NCBI GenBank assembly: GCA_027923505.1
Contig: BROI01000006.1
Location: forward strand, 558,001-622,000
From: Mayamaea pseudoterrestris
Taxonomy: Eukaryota > Bacillariophyta > Bacillariophyceae > Sellaphorales > Sellaphoraceae
Reading direction: 5' to 3'
DNA: 64,000 nt
Numbering within the stretch: position 1 is the stretch's first letter; each line of letters begins with the position of its first letter. Below, in pieces: positions 9,564-52,093 of the stretch. Under the pieces are notes generated by a model. It was not told where the DNA came from and made no database searches. It saw only the letters and a program-made list of their open reading frames with translations. A program made the position numbers and the translations under genes.

Positions 9564-9926
9564 GGTTTGATGCAGATTACTCGACGAATATGTCGTATAA
9601 AATGACCTTTGATAATTGCTGTGTAATTTTGACACGGCTTCCTGGCAACCAATCTTCGCAATCGTTCCGTTCAAGTGAGATATTTCCCACAAGCCTCTGG
9701 ACTTGGTGGTTTCGACAAGCACGAGACGTAGCTTGCAGAATCAATATGAATCTTTACGTAAATTGTCGGCTAAACGTGTTTCAAGTTTCGGCTGCTTTCC
9801 CATGGTGTCGCCTCGAGGTTGCGCCAAGGCACACGCGGTGTTCTGTTTGGTCATAGCGGTACTCTCTGTATCGTACCGGTACTAAACCAAACAACGCCAC
9901 GTTCATTTTTCGCTGCACCATCGACC
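9564..9926. other. Divergent upstream region
   Basis: This lies between the starts of the acidic protein and the homocysteine methyltransferase. It contains the CGGTACT and TCGTACCGGT elements listed separately. I see no coding sequence. Confidence 0.5.
9857..9883 (+). promoter_or_regulatory. CGGTACT + TCGTACCGGTACT element upstream of homocysteine methyltransferase
   Basis: CGGTACT (9857-9863) is followed by TCGTACCGGTACT (9871-9883), 44 to 70 bases before the ATG at 9927. The same two words occur, in reverse order, before the lumenal protein gene at 19041-19070. The regulatory role is an inference from this sharing. Confidence 0.3.
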
Positions 9927-11015
9927 ATGACAACTCACGACCATCATCAGCAAACTCGCCCTAGCTTGGCAAATTACCTTTTCGAAAACAGTCACAACGT
10001 CTTTTTACTAGACGGCGGAACAGGCGAAGAACTCTTTCGTCATGGCGTTCCAGACGACCGAACGCACTGGAGTGCCGAGGCTCTCATGGATCCCAACTAT
10101 CATTCAATATTATACCAGGTCCATGACTCCTTTCTGCAGGCTGGATCAAGTGCTGTCACGACGAATAGCTACGGATGTGTTCCTGGCGTTGGATTTACGA
10201 TAGAAGAACTGCAAGGCCTCTGCGCAACGGCTGGAAGGATTGCTCGTAGTGTTGTTCATGACGAACAATCAAACGCGCCAAGACCACTATACGTTTTGGG
10301 AAGCCTTGGTCCACTCGTCGAGTCGTATCGAGCTGATACAGTCATGGAGCATGAGCAAGGTGTATTTTACTATGAAACCATGTGCAGCGCCATGCTACCC
10401 TTTGTGGATTGCTTTTTGGCGGAAACCATGAGCTCGGTGGAGGAAGCCACGCAAGCGATTGACGCCATATCAAGAATCAGTGAACAAACAACTGATCCGC
10501 AGCAACAACTGCCTTGCATGGTTTCATTTTCGTTGCAATCTGCATCAGCGCGACTATGGTCGGACGAATCTCCCTGCCATGCGTTGGATCAAATCTTGGA
10601 GTACTGCAACACCAAACAAGTGCAGCTGCTGGGAGTTCTCTTTAATTGCGCCACGCCGGAAGCAATCACGTGGGCTCTCGAGGAGATGCACAACCATGAG
10701 CAACTACGCAAACAGCTGCAGCGGCAGCGTGTTCGTCTCGGCGCCTACGCCAATCGACTCACACCCGTGCCATCCAATTGGAGCTTGGCAACACACTTCA
10801 ACGCACCACAGCCACTCCGCACCGATCTTGATCCAAATCGATACTATAACGACTTTGTGAAGCACTGGGTGACAAATTTGGGCGTTGGAATAGTCGGAGG
10901 GTGCTGCGGCGTGACGCCTGAGCACGTTTCACTGCTGCGAGACAAACTACTGGTGGGGCCGCGGCAGACGCAGCAATTAACCGAATGCTCAACGCAATCC
11001 TTGATTCTGTGTTAG
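9927..11015 (+). CDS. Homocysteine S-methyltransferase
   Basis: The ATG at 9927 has context ACCATGA and gives 362 residues. The protein has the single-domain homocysteine S-methyltransferase (Pfam S-methyl_trans) layout: LDGGTGEEL near the N terminus, TTNSYG, LGSLGPL, and the zinc site formed by Cys in LFNCATPEAI and the Cys pair in GGCCGVTPEH near the C terminus. Family members move a methyl group from S-methylmethionine (or SAM) to homocysteine to give methionine in the cytosol. No targeting sequence is evident. The window also codes for the B12-dependent methionine synthase, so two routes to methionine are present. The donor cannot be decided from sequence alone. Confidence 0.9.
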   Translation: MTTHDHHQQTRPSLANYLFENSHNVFLLDGGTGEELFRHGVPDDRTHWSAEALMDPNYHSILYQVHDSFLQAGSSAVTTNSYGCVPGVGFTIEELQGLCATAGRIARSVVHDEQSNAPRPLYVLGSLGPLVESYRADTVMEHEQGVFYYETMCSAMLPFVDCFLAETMSSVEEATQAIDAISRISEQTTDPQQQLPCMVSFSLQSASARLWSDESPCHALDQILEYCNTKQVQLLGVLFNCATPEAITWALEEMHNHEQLRKQLQRQRVRLGAYANRLTPVPSNWSLATHFNAPQPLRTDLDPNRYYNDFVKHWVTNLGVGIVGGCCGVTPEHVSLLRDKLLVGPRQTQQLTECSTQSLILC

Positions 11016-28917: not shown

Positions 28918-31900
28918 ATGAGCTCGCCGCCGCCCAAGCCAAAGAAACTGCACCCCAGGCTGCTCTTCGACTACGACAAGGTTCCACCCAAGCCGCAGTT
29001 TGAACCGCCCCTTCCCACCTCGGATGCCGCAATCAACCATGTTCCGAATCCCTACAAGAACTCGAGTCTGGTGCATGAAAAGATTCAAGCCATTCGCGAG
29101 CGCAGCACCATTAGTGGAAACCGACGCGACGAGATTGATTGGAACCAGCAAGAATCACTAGCGACTGATAACCATCCTGCCGCCTTTCCATACTTTGTGC
29201 GAGGCCGCGATAGTGTACGCTCGTACTTGAACGAGTTGTTCCAAAAGCAGATTGTCATTTACGACGGCGCCATGGGCACCATGATTCAAAACTACTCGAA
29301 ACGCAACAAGCTGGAGGAGGAGGAGTATCGGGGCGACCGCTTTGCCGATTGGACCTGCGCCGTCAAGGGGAACAATGATATGCTGAGTATCTCCCAGCCG
29401 CAGATTATTAGTAACATTTACCGCGGCTACTTGGAGGAGGCTGGCTCCAACTTGATTGGAACAAACACCTTTTCGTCAACCACCATTGCCATGGCTGATT
29501 ACGCCATGGAGGCCTATGCCTACGAGTTGAACTATGAAGGCGCCCGCTTGGCGCGAGAAGCTTGTGATGCTGTCACTGCCATGGATCCCACCAAGCCCCG
29601 GTTTGTGGTGGGAGCCATTGGTCCTACCAACAGGACTGGGTCTATTTCTCCGAGTGTGGAGGATCCTGCCGCTCGTAATGTCACCTTTGATGAGTTGGTG
29701 GAAACATACTTTGAGCAAGTGGTTGGATTGGTGGATGGAGGATCGGATATTCTCATGGTGGAGACCATTTTTGATACATTGAACGCCAAGGCGGCGCTTT
29801 ACGCGATTGGCGAGTTTTTGGAGATGAGTGGACTTGATATTCCAGTCTTTGTGTCTGGGACACTGGTGGACCAGTCGGGACGAACACTATCTGGTCAAAC
29901 TGGAGAAGCCTTTTACGTTTCTATTCGTCATGCCAGACCATTCTGCGTCGGTTTGAACTGCGCTCTGGGAGCCTCGCACATGAAACCCTTTGTCGAGCGC
30001 CTTTCCAAAGCTGCCGAATGCTACGTTCACGTGTACTCGAACGCTGGTCTTCCCAACGCCATGGGTGGTTATGATGACACTCCTGCAACCATGGCGGAGC
30101 AAAACAAGGTTTTCTTTGAGAATGGATGGCTCAATATGGTTGGCGGCTGCTGCGGGTCGACGCCTCCTCACATTAAAGCCATTGCAGACGTTGCTAAAGA
30201 GTTTGCGCCGCGGAAACTGCCCGATCTCGGTCGCCCAAAAATGTGGCTGAGTGGACTTGAAGACTTAAAGGTGGAAGACTCGCATAACCACCTTGGTCTG
30301 CCGTTTTTGAACGTTGGTGAGCGGTGCAACATTGCCGGCAGCATCAAGTTTAAAAAGCTCATGATGGCTGGAGATTATGGAGCGGCAATGGATATTGCCA
30401 AGCAGCAAGTTGAGGATGGCGCCAATGTGATTGATATCAATGTTGACGACGGCATGCTGGATGGCCTTGCAGCGATGCAGAAATTTGTCAAGATTGCCGT
30501 TACGGAGCCAGAGATTGCCAAGGTCCCTTTCATGTTGGACGCTTCGAAATTTGAGATTGTCCTGGCTGGCCTTAAATGGTGCCAAGGAAAGTGCATTGTG
30601 AATTCTATCTCGCTCAAAGTTGGAGAGGAATTGTTTATAGAGCATGCAACCCTCTTGAAGAAGCATGGTGCTGCTGTAGTGGTCATGGCCTTTGACGAAG
30701 AAGGGCAAGCAGCCACCGAAGAAGAGAAGGTTCGCATTTGCAAGCGCTCCTATGATATACTGGTGGACAGAGTTAAGTTTCCTCCGGAGGATATCATTTT
30801 TGACCCAAACGTGCTGACCATCGGTACGGGTATGGAAGAGCATGCCAACTATGGCGTAGACTTTTTGAGGGCAACCAAGCGCATCAAGGAGGTGTGCCCC
30901 TACGTTAAGATTAGTGGAGGCATCTCCAACCTTTCCTTTGGTTTTCGCGGTGTGACGAAGGTTCGCGAGTCGATTCATGCCGTGTTCCTGCACCATGCGA
31001 TTCTGGAATATGGCATGGACGTTGGAATTGTAAATGCGAAGGAGATGCTTGGCATTGAGGACCTTCAGAATGATATGCTCACGCTCTGCGAGAATTTGGT
31101 GTTTAACAAGACGCCAGCTGCGACTGACGACATGCTCGAGCGAACAGAATACGAGCGTGCTGTCATGGATGCTAAGAAGAAGGGACATCCGCCTCCTCGA
31201 AAGCCGCGAGGAACTGTCACAAATCTACCGCGCTTGACCTTTCCTTATGACGAAAAGGCGCCCACGCCGCAATTTGAGCCTCCGACTCCCACGTCGGATG
31301 CTGCTATAAATCATTGGCCGAATCCGTACATGAACTCGAGCTTGGTGCACGAAAAAATCCAGGCTATTCGCCACAGGAGCACTATGACTGGAGAACGCCG
31401 GCAACAGATTGACTGGGCTCAAGCAGGTGACTCCGCACCAGCTACATTTCCGTATTTCGTCAGAGGGCGTGACAGCGTCAGAACGTACCTGAACGAGCTT
31501 TTCAAACGACAAATTGTTATATACGATGGAGCTATGGGAACCATGATTCAAAACTACGCCAAGAGGAACAAGCTCGAGGAGGAGGAATACCGAGGAGAGC
31601 GATTTAAGGATTGGAGTTGTAATGTGAAAGGAAACAATGACATGCTTAGTATTTCGCAGCCTCAAATCATCAGCGCTATCTACAGAGGGTATCTTAAGGA
31701 AGCTGGATCGAACCTTATTGGGACGAATACATTTTCATCGACGACGATTGCCATGGCGGACTACAAGATGGAAGCTTTTGCATACGAATTAAATTACGAA
31801 GGGGCTCGGTTGGCTCGTGAGGCTTGCGATGCAGTGACGGCTATGGACCCGACGAAGCCTCGCTTTGTTGTCGGAGCTATCGGGCCGACGAATCGAACTG

Positions 31901-34900
31901 GATCGATTTCGCCCAGTGTTGAAGACCCGGCGGCGCGAAACGTAACATTTGACGAGCTTGTCGAGACTTACTTTGAGGAAGTTGTTGGTTTAGTTGACGG
32001 TGGGTCGGATATTTTAATGGTGGAGACCATCTTTGATACTTTAAACGCAAAGGCAGCCTTGTATGCTATTGGGGAATTTTTGGAAATGAGTGGTCTTGAT
32101 ATCCCGGTCTTCATTTCGGGAACGTTGGTTGATCAGTCTGGGCGGACGCTTTCTGGCCAGACTGGAGAAGCTTTTTATGTGTCTGTCCGACACGCGAAGC
32201 CGTTCTGTGTTGGTCTCAATTGTGCCTTAGGAGCATCACATATGAAGCCATTTGTTGAGCGACTGTCAAAGGCAGCGGAATGTTATGTCCATGTTTACTC
32301 AAATGCGGGGCTGCCTAATGCGATGGGAGGATATGATGATACGCCTGCTACCATGGCCGAACAGAACAAGGTATTTTTCGAGAATAGCTGGCTCAACATG
32401 GTCGGGGGTTGCTGTGGCTCAACACCGCCCCATATTAAGGCCATTGCCGAGGAGGCCCGTAACTTTGCTCCTCGCAAACTACCGCACCTTGGTCGTCCGA
32501 AAATGTGGCTGAGCGGCTTGGAGGATTTGAAAGTGGAAGATACCCACAATCATCTTGGCTTACCATTCTTGAACGTTGGCGAACGGTGCAACATTGCGGG
32601 CAGCATCAAGTTTAAGAAGCTGATGATGGCTGGCGACTACGGTGCCGCGATGGATATTGCCAAGCAACAGGTTGAAGATGGGGCGAACGTTATCGACATT
32701 AATGTCGATGATGGTATGCTTGACGGCCTTGCGGCCATGCAAAAGTTTGTAAAAATTGCGGTGACTGAACCAGAAATTGCGAAAGTGCCGTTTATGCTGG
32801 ATGCCTCCAAGTTTGAGATTGTTCTCGCTGGGTTGAAGTGGTGTCAAGGGAAGTGCATCGTTAACTCCATCTCATTGAAGGTTGGCGAAGCGCTTTTCAT
32901 TGAGCATGCTACTCTCCTAAAGAAACACGGAGCCGCCGTCGTCGTGATGGCTTTTGATGAAGAAGGCCAGGCTGCAACAGAAGAGGAGAAAGTCCGCATC
33001 TGCAAGCGCTCGTATGATATTCTTGTGGACAAGGTCAAGTTTCCACCCGAGGACATTATCTTTGATCCTAATGTGTTAACTATTGGGACTGGCATGGAGG
33101 AGCATTCGAATTATGGTGTTGACTTTCTTAAAGCAACGAAGCGCATTAAAGAAGTCTGCCCATATGTGAAGATCAGTGGTGGCATTTCCAACCTGTCATT
33201 TGGGTTCCGAGGGGTGACAAAGATTCGGGAATCCATTCATGCTGTCTTTCTCCATCACGCCATTTTGGAGTATGGCATGGATGTTGGTATCGTTAATGCT
33301 AAGGAAATGCTTGCTTTGGACGAAGTCGAGCCTGAACTTCTTGAAGCGTCCGAGAATCTGATATTTAATAAGAATCCTGAAGCGACTGACGTTATGCTTG
33401 AGCTCACAAAGAAGGAGAAAGAGGCTATGGAAGCGCTTAAGAAGGGGGGTGGTGCTCCGAAAGAAGCCAAGTCGGCTTGGCGCGAGCTTGAGCCGAAGAA
33501 GCGACTCGAACATTCTCTCATCAATGGAATATCCGAGTACATTGATGCGGACGTGGAAGAGGCGCGACAGCTTTGCAGCAGACCACTTGAAGTTATTGAA
33601 GGCCCCTTGATGGATGGCATGAATATTGTCGGCGACTTGTTTGGTTCTGGAAAGATGTTTTTGCCTCAGGTCATTAAATCGGCTCGCGTGATGAAGAAGG
33701 CGGTTGCATATCTGCTTCCTTTCATGGACAAAGAGAAGAGGGATAACTTGATAGCTCAAGGACTGGACCCGGACTCGGTCGATGAAAATGACGATTCCAA
33801 TTTCAACGGCAAAGTTCTGATGGCCACGGTCAAAGGCGATGTCCATGACATTGGCAAAAATATCGTCGCAGTCGTGCTTGGATGCAACAATTATAAAGTG
33901 TTTGATATCGGCGTCATGTGCTCGACGGAGCTGATTCTCGAAAAGGCTCGCGAATACGATGTGGACGTCATAGGGCTCTCGGGCCTTATCACACCATCGC
34001 TAGATGAGATGGTTGTAGTTGCAAAAGAGCTTTCGAAACGCGGGTTTAAGCAACCATTGCTGATTGGCGGCGCGACGACGTCAAAGATGCACACAGCTGT
34101 GAAAATCTCGCCGAATTATTCAACTGCCGAGCATCCAGTCATCCATGTTCTTGACGCGTCGCGTTCTGTGACTGTCGTCTCTTCGCTGCTGAACGAGAAC
34201 AAGCGAGACTTCGTGGAAGACTTGAAGGAAGAGTACAACGAACTGCGCGAGGACTATTATGCTGGACTTGAGGACCGATATTTCCTGACGCACGAGAAGG
34301 CTATGGAGCAGAAGATGCCAATTGACTTTACTGCGCGACCCCCTGCGCCTTCGCCCAACCAAATTGGTGTGACTGTCATTGACTCGGTAAGCCTCGTTGA
34401 CATCGTCCCTTTTATCGACTGGAATCCCTTCTTTCAGACTTGGGAGCTTCGTGGCCGCTACCCAAATCGTGGCTACCCCAAGATTTTTAATGATGAATCG
34501 GTCGGTTCCGAGGCCAAGAAGCTTTTTAACGATGCGCAAGCATTGCTGAACAAGATTATCGCCGATGGTTCAATGAACGTGAAAGGAGTTGTTGGTTTGT
34601 TTCCGGCAAACAGTTCGAATGGCGGCGAAGATGTTGATGTGTTTGCAAGCGAAGCCGAGCGCGAGGCTGGCAACAAACTTGCTACCTTTTGCATGCTTCG
34701 TCAGCAGGCCGAGAAAGAGTCCTCAGACCCCTACCTGTCTCAAGCGGATTTTGTCGCTCCACCTGGCATCAAGGACTATCTTGGAATGTTTGCCGTTTCT
34801 TGTTTCGGTTGCGAAGCTCTCGTGAATAAGTTCGAAAGTGAGAATGACGACTACAACAAGATTATGTCACAGGCACTTGCGGATCGTTTTGTTGAAGCCT

Positions 34901-35289
34901 TTGCAGAGTACTTACATCGCGAAATTCGAATGAAACTGTGGGGCTACGCCCCCAACGAGCAGTTGAACGAGGTTGATTTGTTAAAGATTAAGTACGACGG
35001 CATTCGCCCTGCTCCTGGATACCCGTCTCAGCCTGATCATACCGAGAAACTTACAATGTGGCAGGTACTGCAAGCGGAAGAGCTGGCTGGGATAAAGTTG
35101 TCCGAGTCTCTTAGCATGGTTCCTGCCGCGTCGGTTTCTGCGCTTGTTTTTGCTCATCCAGATTCGGAGTATTTTGCTGTAGGCCAGATTGGTAAGGACC
35201 AAGTAGAAAGCTACGCTGCACGCAAGGGAATGCCGCTTGACCAATGTGAAAGGTGGCTGTCGCCAATTCTAAACTACGAAAGAGATTAA
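28918..35289 (+). CDS. MetH: Cobalamin-dependent methionine synthase with duplicated homocysteine and folate modules
   Basis: A single intronless frame of 2123 residues, against roughly 1230 for usual MetH. Order: N-terminal extension 1-112; homocysteine module 1 (zinc ligands C348, C411, C412); pterin module 1 (about 462-740, [17 protein letters not shown]); a second extension (772-866); homocysteine module 2 (C1102, C1165, C1166); pterin module 2 (about 1216-1494); cap from W1521; B12 domain with D-x-H-x-x-G at 1641-1646 (H1643 is the lower cobalt ligand); and the activation domain with [15 protein letters not shown] from R2030. All motifs look intact in both copies. The enzyme transfers methyl from 5-methyl-THF to homocysteine through cobalamin. 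The repeated 5' part is strikingly conserved as protein but not as DNA (see findings). No targeting peptide is evident. Confidence 0.95.
28957..31230 (+). repeat. MetH internal repeat, copy 1 (extension + homocysteine + pterin modules)
   Basis: It codes residues 14-771. It begins [18 protein letters not shown] and carries TSDAAINH and [13 protein letters not shown]. It aligns with copy 2 along its whole length apart from a four-residue length difference in a linker. Zinc and pterin-binding residues are complete. Confidence 0.9.
31231..33477 (+). repeat. MetH internal repeat, copy 2
   Basis: It codes residues 772-1520, beginning [18 protein letters not shown]. From FPYFVRG to the end of the pterin module I count 28 differences over about 620 residues. 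Codons differ silently in most places: in one 20-codon sample (29455 against 31717) 12 of 19 shared residues use another codon. Confidence 0.9.
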
Positions 35290-47333: not shown

Positions 47334-49415
47334 TTAAATGCTTTGATATTCACCTTTGACAGCTCGATCGCCCTGAGGCACAAGATTCTCTAGGCGACGA
47401 ATCAGTCGCTTCTGCAAACCTTGTTGGCTATCCAGCGCTCCCAGCATGGCTGGTTCAACACATGATGCAATATCACCTGCGAATGCATACATTAGTAAGT
47501 TCCGCGCCATTTGGCGATCCAAACCTCGTGCCCGCAGATAAAATAGCTCCTCCTCACTCAGATCGGATACGGTTGTCCCGTGAGCGCACTTGACATCATC
47601 GGCAATGATTTCCAAGCTCGGAACGGACCAAGCGCGTGCCTTGTCACTCAGTAGCACCGTCCTTGACAGTTGCTGACTGTCTGTTTGCTGAGCGCTCTGT
47701 TCAACTCGAATACGTCCTCGAAAGGAACCCGTCGATCGACCACCAACCATGTTCTTTTGCGTTTGCCGACTGACAGTCGCTTGCGCAATGTGATGAATGT
47801 TTGTCTTCATATCAGTTCGTTGTGAACCACCCGATAGACTGAATCCATTCACCTCGGCCCTGGTGCCCGAGTGAAGCAAGGTGGCCGACACGCCAATGCG
47901 CACGCGGCCACTCCCGCCAACACTCATGACTGTTCCTCGATAATCGGCATCTTGACCCATGCAATGTACGTCAATCGCTTCCAAATGAGTATCCTTTAAT
48001 GCCGAACGGTCAGCTTCCGCGACGCGAGGTGAAATGACGGATTCATCGGATAGCTCATCGTCACTTAGTTCGACACCTGCAGTGACCATACCACCAGATT
48101 CCTCTAGATAAGAGTGAGTCACATTGGCTCCTGCCTTCAGAAAGACTTGAGTATAGCCATTATATAGCTTCGGGTTGCTGCCGTCACTTCTATCGTTCGC
48201 ATTGCCAGTTGTTGTTAAATCGACTGTAGATTGAACAACAGATAGACGCGAGTGTTCATTAGCTACGATCAATGTCCGCGGATGTAGACTCGCTCCCATG
48301 CTATTGTCTACATTAGACGCCAATCCCAATGACGGTGTCACTGTATTAATGATCAAGACTGGCTTGGGAAGTGGAGCTGTCGCTTTTTCCTCCTCCGTCA
48401 GTGGCGCACCGGCTGGTGCGGAAACGAATGCAACTGCTCTTGCCTTTATTGTATTTAATGCAGCAAAGCAGGCTGTTCCTTGCTGCGTATTGATTGCAAA
48501 TTGCGAGGTTGGAGCGCCAACATTGTGGTTTGGGCCGCTCAGTTTCTCAAAGGACGAAATGGTGGATTCGCCATTGGCAACGGGACAAGCAAGCTCATCC
48601 GTAAAGCCGTCTGTCAGTCGCGCCAAGTATTTTGTCAGCTCTTGGCTTTCGGCAATTTGTGACTCGTCTTGAATATTGTAAACATGCTCGGAAGGTTTCG
48701 ATAGCTCGTCAACGTAGTATCCATTGACATAAACGAGGCGAGCCGCGCATTCGTCATCGTCAAGCCATCCTCCCTGCGCCAACAAGTCTTGCTGAATAGA
48801 ATGGCATCGCTCGCTTGACATTTCTATTGGCTCAGCAATTTGCGAATAATCCTGCGCAATCATGCCTGGTACATCAAATTGTCTCCATGTTTCCGCGTTT
48901 CGTCGAGGCGTTGGAATGCCAAACTGCTCCAAGCCAAACGACGGCACCAGCGGCGTCCAAGGCAGCTTGGTTGTCACGTAGGGAGTCCATTCGACATCAT
49001 CCGTATCCTTCTCCAAATCATTGACTAGTTCCACTGGAGTTTCGAGGATTGTCCGTGTCTGCTGGGCTAGTGACTTGAGAATGCCATCCGCAGCATGTGT
49101 TTGCAAAAGTCCTTCGTACCACTCGTCGCAGGCTTGATCGAGCTTGGTGCGTCGGGACAATCGATATTCCTCATGGTTTGGAATCTCGTATTCAAATTCA
49201 GTCTCATCGCCTGCTCTTTGCGACTGTTCCTCCTCCTTGCTAGGGCCCAGGCCGATACTGACTGCCAAAGTTGTCGTTGATGGCGAAGAAGATGCAATGG
49301 AATTTGGAGCTATGTTTGCATGGTGTTTCTTTAACGACGAAACGACAAAGGCTAGCGACGACTCGAATAACTGTGAGCTCGTTAGCGTTAGCAAGAGTAT
49401 GCAGCTAGTCTTCAT
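47334..49415 (-). CDS. SufD: Fe-S cluster assembly protein SufD, plastid-targeted
   Basis: The first ATG of the frame is at 49415 and gives 693 residues; the open frame upstream has no ATG. The N terminus has a signal peptide (TSCILLLTLTSSQLFESSLA) and Phe just after the likely cut (SSLA/FVVSS), the diatom plastid pattern. The SufB/SufD beta-helix part contains DYRGTVMSVGGSGRVRIG, SGTRAEVNGFSLSG, NIHHIAQ and the C-terminal signature CAHGTTVSDLSEEELFYLRARG. Together with SufB and SufC, SufD forms the scaffold that builds Fe-S clusters in the plastid stroma. In diatoms SufB and SufC are plastid-encoded, so a nuclear SufD is expected. A CRE palindrome lies 246 bases upstream. Confidence 0.93.
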   Translation of the reverse strand: MKTSCILLLTLTSSQLFESSLAFVVSSLKKHHANIAPNSIASSSPSTTTLAVSIGLGPSKEEEQSQRAGDETEFEYEIPNHEEYRLSRRTKLDQACDEWYEGLLQTHAADGILKSLAQQTRTILETPVELVNDLEKDTDDVEWTPYVTTKLPWTPLVPSFGLEQFGIPTPRRNAETWRQFDVPGMIAQDYSQIAEPIEMSSERCHSIQQDLLAQGGWLDDDECAARLVYVNGYYVDELSKPSEHVYNIQDESQIAESQELTKYLARLTDGFTDELACPVANGESTISSFEKLSGPNHNVGAPTSQFAINTQQGTACFAALNTIKARAVAFVSAPAGAPLTEEEKATAPLPKPVLIINTVTPSLGLASNVDNSMGASLHPRTLIVANEHSRLSVVQSTVDLTTTGNANDRSDGSNPKLYNGYTQVFLKAGANVTHSYLEESGGMVTAGVELSDDELSDESVISPRVAEADRSALKDTHLEAIDVHCMGQDADYRGTVMSVGGSGRVRIGVSATLLHSGTRAEVNGFSLSGGSQRTDMKTNIHHIAQATVSRQTQKNMVGGRSTGSFRGRIRVEQSAQQTDSQQLSRTVLLSDKARAWSVPSLEIIADDVKCAHGTTVSDLSEEELFYLRARGLDRQMARNLLMYAFAGDIASCVEPAMLGALDSQQGLQKRLIRRLENLVPQGDRAVKGEYQSI

Positions 49416-49968
49416 AGTCAAAGGTGCAATGTGTTTGATCCGTTGTTGCTGCTCGTTTTTGGATCTCAAAGAATGTGATGGTTCATGGTCGCGAGAGCCA
49501 TCGCGGTTGATGCGTGACGCACTTTCTGCCACTGCGACAGCTAGCTAGCCCTTTGCATAAAAGCGCATCAGGAAGTTAGCTGCGAGTAGCCACTTCACAG
49601 CAGGCTTGAAAAAGGATAGGTAAGAGAAACTGACCAAATACTGCTTATCACCTTTTGACTTGACGTCAAACAAGTTTATGGACATGAATAGCCGATTTAA
49701 CGGCCTCCAGCATTGCAGTCTGATTCAACGTCTACATTTCGGTCATTCCGACAAATCATTTGTCGGGAACTAATTGGGTGCAGGCCAAAGTATTCGATAA
49801 ATGCTATAAAATGCGACGAAGAAGGGATTCACAACTTGTTACGCTCTCGACGAGCGGCGAGCAGGCTAGCGAATTGACTTTCAAATTTTTCAATTTATTC
49901 GTTATGCGTAACTATAATTATATATCTCATGCAGTTTCATATCTAGCGCAGATTGCTGCTCTTACCCA
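49416..49968. other. Intergenic region upstream of SufD
   Basis: It contains a perfect TTGACGTCAA palindrome (49660-49669). A 74-codon frame at 49760-49984 is not supported. The part near 49900 is probably the RING gene 3' UTR. Confidence 0.45.
49660..49669. promoter_or_regulatory. CRE-type palindrome TTGACGTCAA
   Basis: A perfect ten-base palindrome with TGACGTCA, 245-254 bases upstream of the SufD start on the minus strand. The role is inferred. Confidence 0.35.
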
Positions 49969-50725: not shown

Positions 50726-52093
50726 ATGACAGTCATTCGAATATCGGGAGCATCTTCTCGACTTCTTTCATATCATGTCTGCATATTGACGCTTTTCATC
50801 ATCCTAACGATTTCGGTGTCAAGTTTCACTTCGCCTCTTCGTCAATCAACGATTTATGCTCGTCACAACATGGCTGCCAAGAATGCAGAGGAAGATCTCG
50901 AGCTGACTCGACAAATTATCCTTGGTCACATTGTGACTTCAGACTCGCCAGAATCCAAGGATGATACAAACCCTTCCTCTGACCGGCCCGTCAATGATTT
51001 GATGATTCGAGCGGCAATGGGCGAAACGGTGGAGCGAACGCCCGTTTGGCTGTTTCGACAAGCTGGTAGACACTTACCAGAGTATCAAGACTACAAGAAG
51101 CAACTTGGAAAGAACTTTTTGGAGCTACTCGCCGATCCCATGGCTGTGGCTGAATGTACACTGCAACCTGTTCGAAGGTATCCATTGGATGCTGCCATAT
51201 TGTTTAGCGACATTCTCGTCCTGGTCGAAGCCTTGGGCATTCCGGTAACCATGCCGGGCGGAGTTGGCATACAAGTCCCAGAGCCTCTCCAGAGTCCATC
51301 CGAAATTGAAACGCGATTGGTAGAGAAGTCGCAAATTACGCCAGCTTGGGTCAGAGACAATCTTGGTCACGTTTTGGCGGCGGTTCGACAGATTCGATCG
51401 CATATGAAGGCCGAGGCAATTAGTGTTCCACTCATTGGATTCTCTGCAGCACCTTACACCTTGCTTTACTACATGATTGGTGGGTCATCAAAGAAGAATA
51501 ACGATATTGGAACCAAGTGGTTGACAGAACATCCGGAAGAGTCTAAGAAATTGCTCGACAAACTCACTCTCTTGGTTGTCGAATATCTATCGGCACAAGT
51601 CGAAGCAGGCTGCCACATGCTTCAAATCTTTGAGGCCATGGGCATGATGATTGATGATGCAAACTTTGAAAAGTTTGCCCTGCCATGCCTTGAATCCATT
51701 GGCACGCAGCTCAAGGAGCGTCATCCTAACATTCCACTCATGGTGTTTTGCCGTGGCGCTTGTCAAATGAACGACAAGGTCGCCGCTCTTGGATGCTATA
51801 ACGTTATAACCATGGATGGCTCTGTCGATCGTACGACAGCCAGAAGTGTCGTAGGTTCCAATGTATCGTTGCAGGGCAGCTATGATCCAGCGGAGCTCAT
51901 TGCCGAAAATGGCAAGACAGCCGAAACCGTTCGCAACACTGCAAAGCAATATCTTGAAGATCTAGGACCGCAGCGATTGATTGCCAACCTCGGAGAAGGT
52001 TTGGGCGGAAAGGAAAGTACGGATCTTGTCGATGTCTTTGTCCGCGCCATTCATGAAGAAAGCGAGGCGATGATCAAAGCGGGAATGCAATGA
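50726..52093 (+). CDS. HemE: Uroporphyrinogen decarboxylase, plastid-targeted
   Basis: The ATG at 50726 gives 455 residues. A signal peptide (VCILTLFIILTISVSS) and Phe at the likely cut (VSS/FTSPLRQS) point to plastid import. The catalytic barrel begins at NDLMIRAAMGE and shows the substrate-binding segment PVWLFRQAGRHLPEYQ (usual form RQAGRYLPEY, so Tyr to His here), then AILFSDILV with the catalytic Asp, PGGVGI, IGFSAAPYTLLYYMI, HMLQIFEAMG, and VITMDGSVDR. It decarboxylates uroporphyrinogen III to coproporphyrinogen III in tetrapyrrole synthesis. The Tyr-to-His change is the only oddity. Confidence 0.95.
   Translation: MTVIRISGASSRLLSYHVCILTLFIILTISVSSFTSPLRQSTIYARHNMAAKNAEEDLELTRQIILGHIVTSDSPESKDDTNPSSDRPVNDLMIRAAMGETVERTPVWLFRQAGRHLPEYQDYKKQLGKNFLELLADPMAVAECTLQPVRRYPLDAAILFSDILVLVEALGIPVTMPGGVGIQVPEPLQSPSEIETRLVEKSQITPAWVRDNLGHVLAAVRQIRSHMKAEAISVPLIGFSAAPYTLLYYMIGGSSKKNNDIGTKWLTEHPEESKKLLDKLTLLVVEYLSAQVEAGCHMLQIFEAMGMMIDDANFEKFALPCLESIGTQLKERHPNIPLMVFCRGACQMNDKVAALGCYNVITMDGSVDRTTARSVVGSNVSLQGSYDPAELIAENGKTAETVRNTAKQYLEDLGPQRLIANLGEGLGGKESTDLVDVFVRAIHEESEAMIKAGMQ

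Follow-up and report, generated by a model that had tools for sequence, protein, structure and literature searches.

The 64,000-nucleotide stretch of the Mayamaea pseudoterrestris genome analysed here (the window) contains a gene that probably encodes a real cobalamin-dependent methionine synthase (MetH) of unusual design. The double barrel of homocysteine (Hcy) and methyl-folate (Fol) modules occurs twice before one Cap, one cobalamin-binding (Cob) and one activation (Act) domain, and the enzyme would work at a 2:2:1 ratio, plausibly raising turnover per B12. The gene is a single forward-strand reading frame with an ATG at 28918, a TAA ending at 35289 and no internal stops, in a window without any N. 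Pfam finds S-methyl_trans and Pterin_bind twice each in the protein and B12-binding_2, B12-binding and Met_synt_B12 once each, in the order extension-Hcy-Fol, extension-Hcy-Fol, Cap-Cob-Act (Table 1). This agrees with the first-pass annotation, which had read the 2123-residue frame as extension, homocysteine and pterin modules given twice, followed by one B12 and one activation module. Its view that both zinc sites and both pterin signatures are intact also holds: the two PF02574 modules carry Cys348, Cys411 and Cys412 in set 1 and Cys1102, Cys1165 and Cys1166 in set 2, which we take from known MetH to be zinc ligands, and both PF00809 modules have the chosen conserved residues. The remaining hallmarks of MetH are present as well, namely the Cap domain (PF02607), a cobalamin domain (PF02310) whose DxHxxG motif with His1643 falls in invariant columns, and a C-terminal activation domain (PF02965, 1826-2104). 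The folate and B12 modules speak against a B12-free homocysteine S-methyltransferase (HMT/BHMT), since the protein does not have PF02574 alone. The protein departs from the canonical architecture of one Hcy and one Fol module per B12 part in having two of each.

Table 1. Features of the two-set MetH gene (positions in the window).
Feature	Position	Strand	Basis
Whole two-set MetH frame, 2123 aa	28918..35289	+	sequence, open frame
Set 1 N-terminal extension, residues 13-112	28954..29253	+	aligns to 771-866; no Pfam domain
Set 1 homocysteine methyltransferase module, residues 113-425	29254..30192	+	PF02574
Set 1 putative zinc ligand Cys348 (GLNC)	29959..29961	+	sequence, alignment
Set 1 putative zinc ligands Cys411-Cys412 (GGCCG)	30148..30153	+	sequence, alignment
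Set 1 methyl-folate (pterin) module, residues 467-706	30316..31035	+	PF00809
Junction tail, residues 712-770, position-specific across stramenopiles	31051..31227	+	comparison; model: helix, then weaker stretch
Set 2 extension, residues 771-866	31228..31515	+	alignment; model mostly confident, largely without helix or strand
Set 2 homocysteine methyltransferase module, residues 867-1179	31516..32454	+	PF02574
Set 2 putative zinc ligand Cys1102	32221..32223	+	alignment
Set 2 putative zinc ligands Cys1165-Cys1166	32410..32415	+	alignment
Set 2 methyl-folate (pterin) module, residues 1221-1460	32578..33297	+	PF00809
End tail before the B12 part, residues 1466-1520, position-specific	33313..33477	+	comparison
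Cap domain, residues 1528-1599	33499..33714	+	PF02607
Cobalamin-binding domain, residues 1631-1725, DVHDIG with His1643	33808..34092	+	PF02310; invariant columns
Activation domain, residues 1826-2104	34393..35229	+	PF02965

The two sets match far beyond chance, with 669 of 748 aligned residues identical. The likeness is concentrated in the Hcy-Fol core, where 574 of 599 residues (95.8%) are the same; the extension (73/96) and the tail behind the folate module (22/53) are much less alike. An earlier hand count had given 28 differences in about 620 residues; the near-identity stands, and the measured count is 25 in 599. At the DNA level the cores are 75.7% identical (1361/1797), the longest run common to both sets is 18 bases, and 166 of 201 fourfold sites differ. 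Among the identical core residues, 369 of 574 (64%) use a different codon and 205 the same one, in line with the 12 of 19 found in the first small sample. Silent sites had been described as heavily diverged and the protein as nearly frozen, and comparing synonymous with nonsynonymous differences bears this out (core pS 0.93, which is saturated; pN 0.034). The proposed selection on both halves is likewise upheld, as 574 identical residues against saturated silent sites imply strong constraint on the protein. A recent duplication is ruled out by the core pS and the fourfold differences, and the repeat cannot be an assembly artefact because its silent sites are saturated. No gene-conversion tract between the sets was seen in this genome: pS is at least 0.67 in every 60-codon window, and no identical run exceeds the 18 bases. 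We infer that these copies have long escaped homogenisation and are now kept alike by purifying selection.

The doubled layout is not private to this genome; it is one in a series of two-, three- and four-set MetH proteins. The first-pass annotation had suggested looking for the order Hcy-pterin-Hcy-pterin-B12 in other diatoms and ochrophytes, and the layout does occur there, for example in Nitzschia inconspicua and Epithemia, and with a third set in Chrysophaeum. Domains were counted in the Mayamaea protein and 180 listed relatives, taken from searches that list the 120 best matches and favour long, similar proteins, and the counts are not frequencies. Among these proteins, at least two homocysteine modules are present in 158 of the 181 proteins, exactly two Hcy, two Fol, one Cob and one Act in 102, and a 3:3:1:1 composition in 14. 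The B12 part is essentially single, with more than one Cob match in P0057 and P0175 (2/181) and more than one Act match in P0108 (1/181). The closest named relatives among the matches listed are the diatoms Epithemia and Nitzschia inconspicua (81% identical). Two sets are found in these and in Hondaea, Mucochytrium, Chlorella vulgaris, Symbiodinium natans and the entries Chlat1 and Mesvir1, presumably Chlorokybus and Mesostigma; three in Chrysophaeum, Chlorella sorokiniana, Volvox carteri and Polarella; and four, the most seen, in the green algae Bryopsis and Haematococcus. Prorocentrum is also among the multi-set database entries, whose names are generic (methionine synthase, hypothetical protein). 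The transcript-derived relatives P0026 and P0038 span both sets. Two entries have unusual layouts: P0133 (Chlamydomonas reinhardtii, 2453 aa) has three Hcy-Fol sets with odd spacing and no Cap match, and its gene model may be faulty near the repeats, and P0124 (Symbiodinium, 4119 aa) has ten Hcy and six Fol matches, with further modules following the activation domain in a second series, and may be a fusion of two gene models.

A second set is not required, because apparently complete single-set MetHs occur in close relatives. One of them, P0093, shares 566 and 570 of 599 core residues with sets 1 and 2, respectively. Some single-set relatives could be faked by repeat collapse in short-read assemblies, and the apparently single-set transcript protein P0102 starts within the junction tail and is thus a truncated double. 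Among prokaryotes, the best 80 of at least 593 matching stretches each carry a single Hcy-Fol set, and we rejected a prokaryotic origin of the doubling on these grounds. At two prokaryotic MetH loci (L031, L056) an extra homocysteine methyltransferase match, about 30% identical, lies in a separate neighbouring frame. No second set was found on nine contigs of the viral collection, five of them incomplete, and the genome-contig and viral-contig collections gave no multi-set MetH DNA (no match in the scan with P0001, no multi-set locus in the alignment-based scan).

How old is the duplication? The answer differs between the cores and the tails. In a tree of 100 cores, taken from 235 sets, most copies pair with the sister set of their own protein, with exceptions such as P0033 and P0078, whose set 1 pairs with P0097 and P0081, respectively. 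In 75 of the 96 multi-set proteins from the first search (among the matches listed), no pair of cores falls below 97% identity. We compared 42 dereplicated proteins from P0001-P0072 (minus P0030 and P0031), each of which has both sets complete, 90 or more residues ahead of set 1 and less than 95% core identity to any already kept. Their core windows are 0.96-0.99 identical within a protein versus 0.70-0.91 between species, and core and extension alike are far closer within proteins than between species, with no position signal. The pattern flips just behind residue 1465: in the last tail window identity is 0.57 for the same position, 0.48 for the sister set and 0.43 for the other position. Trees of 16 of these proteins, hand-picked to span the tree, tell the same story. 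The cores require 16 label changes, and a set-1 clade is rejected (p-AU 2e-6), whereas the tails (48 columns) require 3 versus a mean of 11 in shuffles, and none of 500 shuffles was as low. The tails are homogenised too in P0047 and P0054. The Mayamaea protein has the set-1-type junction tail at residues 712-770, and its sets join each other before P0093 in the core tree (SH-aLRT 90, not starred).

The junction is common to Ochrophyta and Labyrinthulomycetes, so the stramenopile duplication should be older than their split, unless it was transferred horizontally. Such transfer is conceivable, as the core tree places the pelagophyte outside diatoms and labyrinthulids. The best reading of these sequences is one old duplication shared by stramenopiles, with cores that were repeatedly homogenised and tails that stayed fixed by position. 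Gene conversion or unequal exchange would keep the near-identical sets alike in most species. The junctions of green algae and dinoflagellates look different from those of stramenopiles, and their appearance suggests separate expansions in these groups. The early proposal of an old in-frame tandem duplication can thus be kept in part: the duplication is in frame and old, but the divergence between the halves does not date it, since the stramenopile tails show that it is older.

Codon usage adds a peculiar observation. Under neutral reversible change, codon matches should drop to the random level and never below. When the set 2 codons are shuffled within each amino acid, 233.5 (sd 9.9) same-codon matches are expected, against the 205 observed, and 48 of 20,000 shuffles were as low. 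As controls, we used hand-chosen families of the same genome (HSP70, histone, light-harvesting, tubulin). The 92 saturated comparisons among 246 (fourfold difference of at least 0.5 on at least 20 sites, with overlapping loci of one gene counted repeatedly) have a mean z of +1.16 and a minimum of -1.03, with 18 below zero and none below -2, although the control genes are shorter than MetH and their z values have less power. The fourfold (2.80) and twofold (1.97) classes carry the effect, the sixfold class goes slightly the opposite way (z -1.24), and the longest DNA runs common to both sets are at least as long as in the shuffles. Hence, the two sets share fewer codons than chance, and this observation, made post hoc in one gene and uneven over codon classes, is suggestive only. 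A more ambitious and decidedly speculative scenario, which we think improbable as a whole, is that algae repeatedly built B12-economising MetHs with two to four substrate stations per cobalamin, subject to a tug-of-war. Gene conversion would homogenise the sets in most species, and selection would here have driven silent sites apart to below random codon similarity, thereby shielding the repeat from recombinational loss.

Judging by natural variants, one station may be lost without the other. Among the 352 sets cut from the 181 listed proteins, all three zinc cysteines are kept in 345, and all but one (N1219) of 14 hand-chosen conserved positions of the pterin module hold in at least 350. A zinc ligand is lost in set 1 of P0033, P0084, P0085, P0097 and P0098 and in set 2 of P0042 and P0105 (one ligand each). 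Set 1 of P0033, P0084, P0085 and P0097 also lacks pieces of Hcy1, next to a gap-free Fol1 that is 90-99% identical to Fol2. P0098, which lost zinc ligands as well, lies elsewhere in the tree; its folate modules, like those of P0042, are intact. In P0130 and P0132 it is Fol1 that has changed residues, being just 53-58% identical to Fol2, with Hcy1 at 79-83%. Each of these variants is known from single predicted proteins. As some relatives appear to have lost the key residues of one homocysteine or one folate module while keeping the rest, any benefit may not depend on two full sets in every case.

Many phytoplankton are limited by B12, which they use mainly for MetH. In the mechanism that we propose, both sets would fold and bind Zn, homocysteine and methyl-folate. 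The one B12 domain could dock on either set, in the classical geometry on the near set 2 and with a longer swing on the far set 1. With more loaded sites for each B12, turnover per cobalamin could then be higher when B12 is scarce, which is the least certain step. The first-pass annotation had raised higher substrate capture by a 2:2:1 enzyme as a possibility. Such an economy is not the only way out for this genome, because it also has a MetE-type gene (PF08267, two pieces). Across the genome (30.6 Mb, 41 contigs) there is one Met_synt_B12 match, and two homocysteine methyltransferase matches exist besides MetH. One is a stand-alone frame (PF02574 only) at 9819-11015 (+) of the window, about 18 kb upstream of the MetH gene, and another match lies on contig C7. 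The window also encodes a SufB/D-type Fe-S assembly protein (47334-49532, -) and a uroporphyrinogen decarboxylase (50726-52093, +). The predicted structure of Fol1-junction-extension-Hcy2 (730 residues, mean pLDDT 78, pTM 0.58) does not give the relative placement of the sets. A terminal Fol1 helix at 735-755 is followed by a weaker stretch around 761-780; most of the extension is modelled with confidence, yet little of it forms helices or strands. We read the modelled junction as a short hinge and a chain packed on the barrel, rather than a long floppy linker. According to the available part of PMC10567725, the Hcy and Fol modules of a solved MetH move together as a rigid unit, and Cob has to meet Hcy:Fol and Act by turns.

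Other explanations deserve consideration. Set 1 could be a passive passenger, if duplication is easy, gene conversion maintains the likeness of the copies and cells put up with an extra set that brings little benefit. This agrees with the range of one to four sets, with the apparent single-set relatives and with the changed or lost key residues tolerated in several lineages. We still regard it as unlikely, given the zinc triad kept in nearly all sets, the gap-free Fol1 next to a broken Hcy1 in P0033-type proteins, and a Mayamaea gene that holds its core residues against saturated silent change with no sign of recent conversion. Set 1 could also be important without being a second catalytic station, acting as a scaffold, dimer-like partner, regulator or substrate reservoir. 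The extension, modelled mostly as a confident chain rather than a floppy linker (with the weaker stretch near 761-780), would suit such a role, as would the loss of key residues from single modules while the rest of the set stays. The key residues are nevertheless kept in set 1 here and in nearly all other sets, and no MetH is known to need such a partner; this role seems quite unlikely.

Each species could instead have duplicated its set recently and independently. The pairing of copies within species in the core trees is what this predicts, and the different junctions of green algae and dinoflagellates may indeed mark separate events. Such a history is nonetheless very unlikely in our view, since within stramenopiles the tails of Bacillariophyta and Labyrinthulomycetes cluster junction with junction and end with end, on few columns, and silent change between the Mayamaea halves has reached saturation. 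In principle, assembly trouble could explain near-identical copies in other species, and one may ask whether the present gene is an assembly join or two separate genes read as one. There is hardly any chance of this: 24% of core bases are different between the halves, the reading frame runs through the junction without a break, Met_synt_B12 is matched just once in the genome, and the junction recurs in many sources, transcript-derived proteins included. Unless long reads contradict the assembly, we consider a join refuted for this window. The reading of set 1 as a second working station on one B12 domain is the one we favour.

This reading could have broader consequences. The doubled layout may help algae to extract more from scarce B12. 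Should many algal MetHs turn out to have several stations per cobalamin, enzyme design would set the methionine output per B12, a quantity that can be measured, and models built on a 1:1:1 enzyme would need revision. Concerted cores with position-fixed tails, and relatives without one zinc or folate site, are ready-made tests, and the saturated silent sites of the present gene are clean evidence against an assembly artefact. In the literature searched we found no description of repeated Hcy-Fol sets in MetH and no kinetics, zinc count or structure of any multi-set MetH. The available parts of PMC4523565, PMC11439496, PMC6557843, PMC6451014 and PMC7287063 make no mention of repeated modules; among them are a Pfam survey of METH across a 1,666-strain data set (PMC11439496) and an alignment of 1508 positions that includes T. 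pseudonana and P. tricornutum (PMC6557843), whose length implies that the models of these two diatoms are probably single-set.

The protein shares the module types and their order, the zinc triad, the DVHDIG motif and the activation domain with single-set MetH/MTR (EC 2.1.1.13), and its sequence matches in the PDB include 9ssp, 8g3h, 4ccz and 3bul. It differs from these enzymes in doubling Hcy and Fol and in the extension, about 95 residues long, that precedes each set; the match to 9ssp, the best in the PDB, does not begin until residue 853. The multi-set entries of Nitzschia inconspicua, Epithemia, Hondaea, Mucochytrium, Chrysophaeum, Chlorella, Volvox carteri, Polarella and Prorocentrum likewise have two to four Hcy-Fol sets and one Cap-Cob part. 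Most of the multi-set proteins listed (75/96) have cores at least 97% identical, whereas those of Mayamaea are 95.8% identical with saturated silent sites. The closest precedent that we found for a duplicated and homogenised corrinoid methyltransferase system is the mtrA-1/mtrA-2 pair of methanogens, for which the available part of PMC4632066 describes an ancient duplication, long-lasting gene conversion and copy-specific parts. According to the same part of that source, mtrA-1 and mtrA-2 are separate archaeal genes for the corrinoid subunit, whereas in the present MetH it is the substrate modules that are repeated, within one protein.
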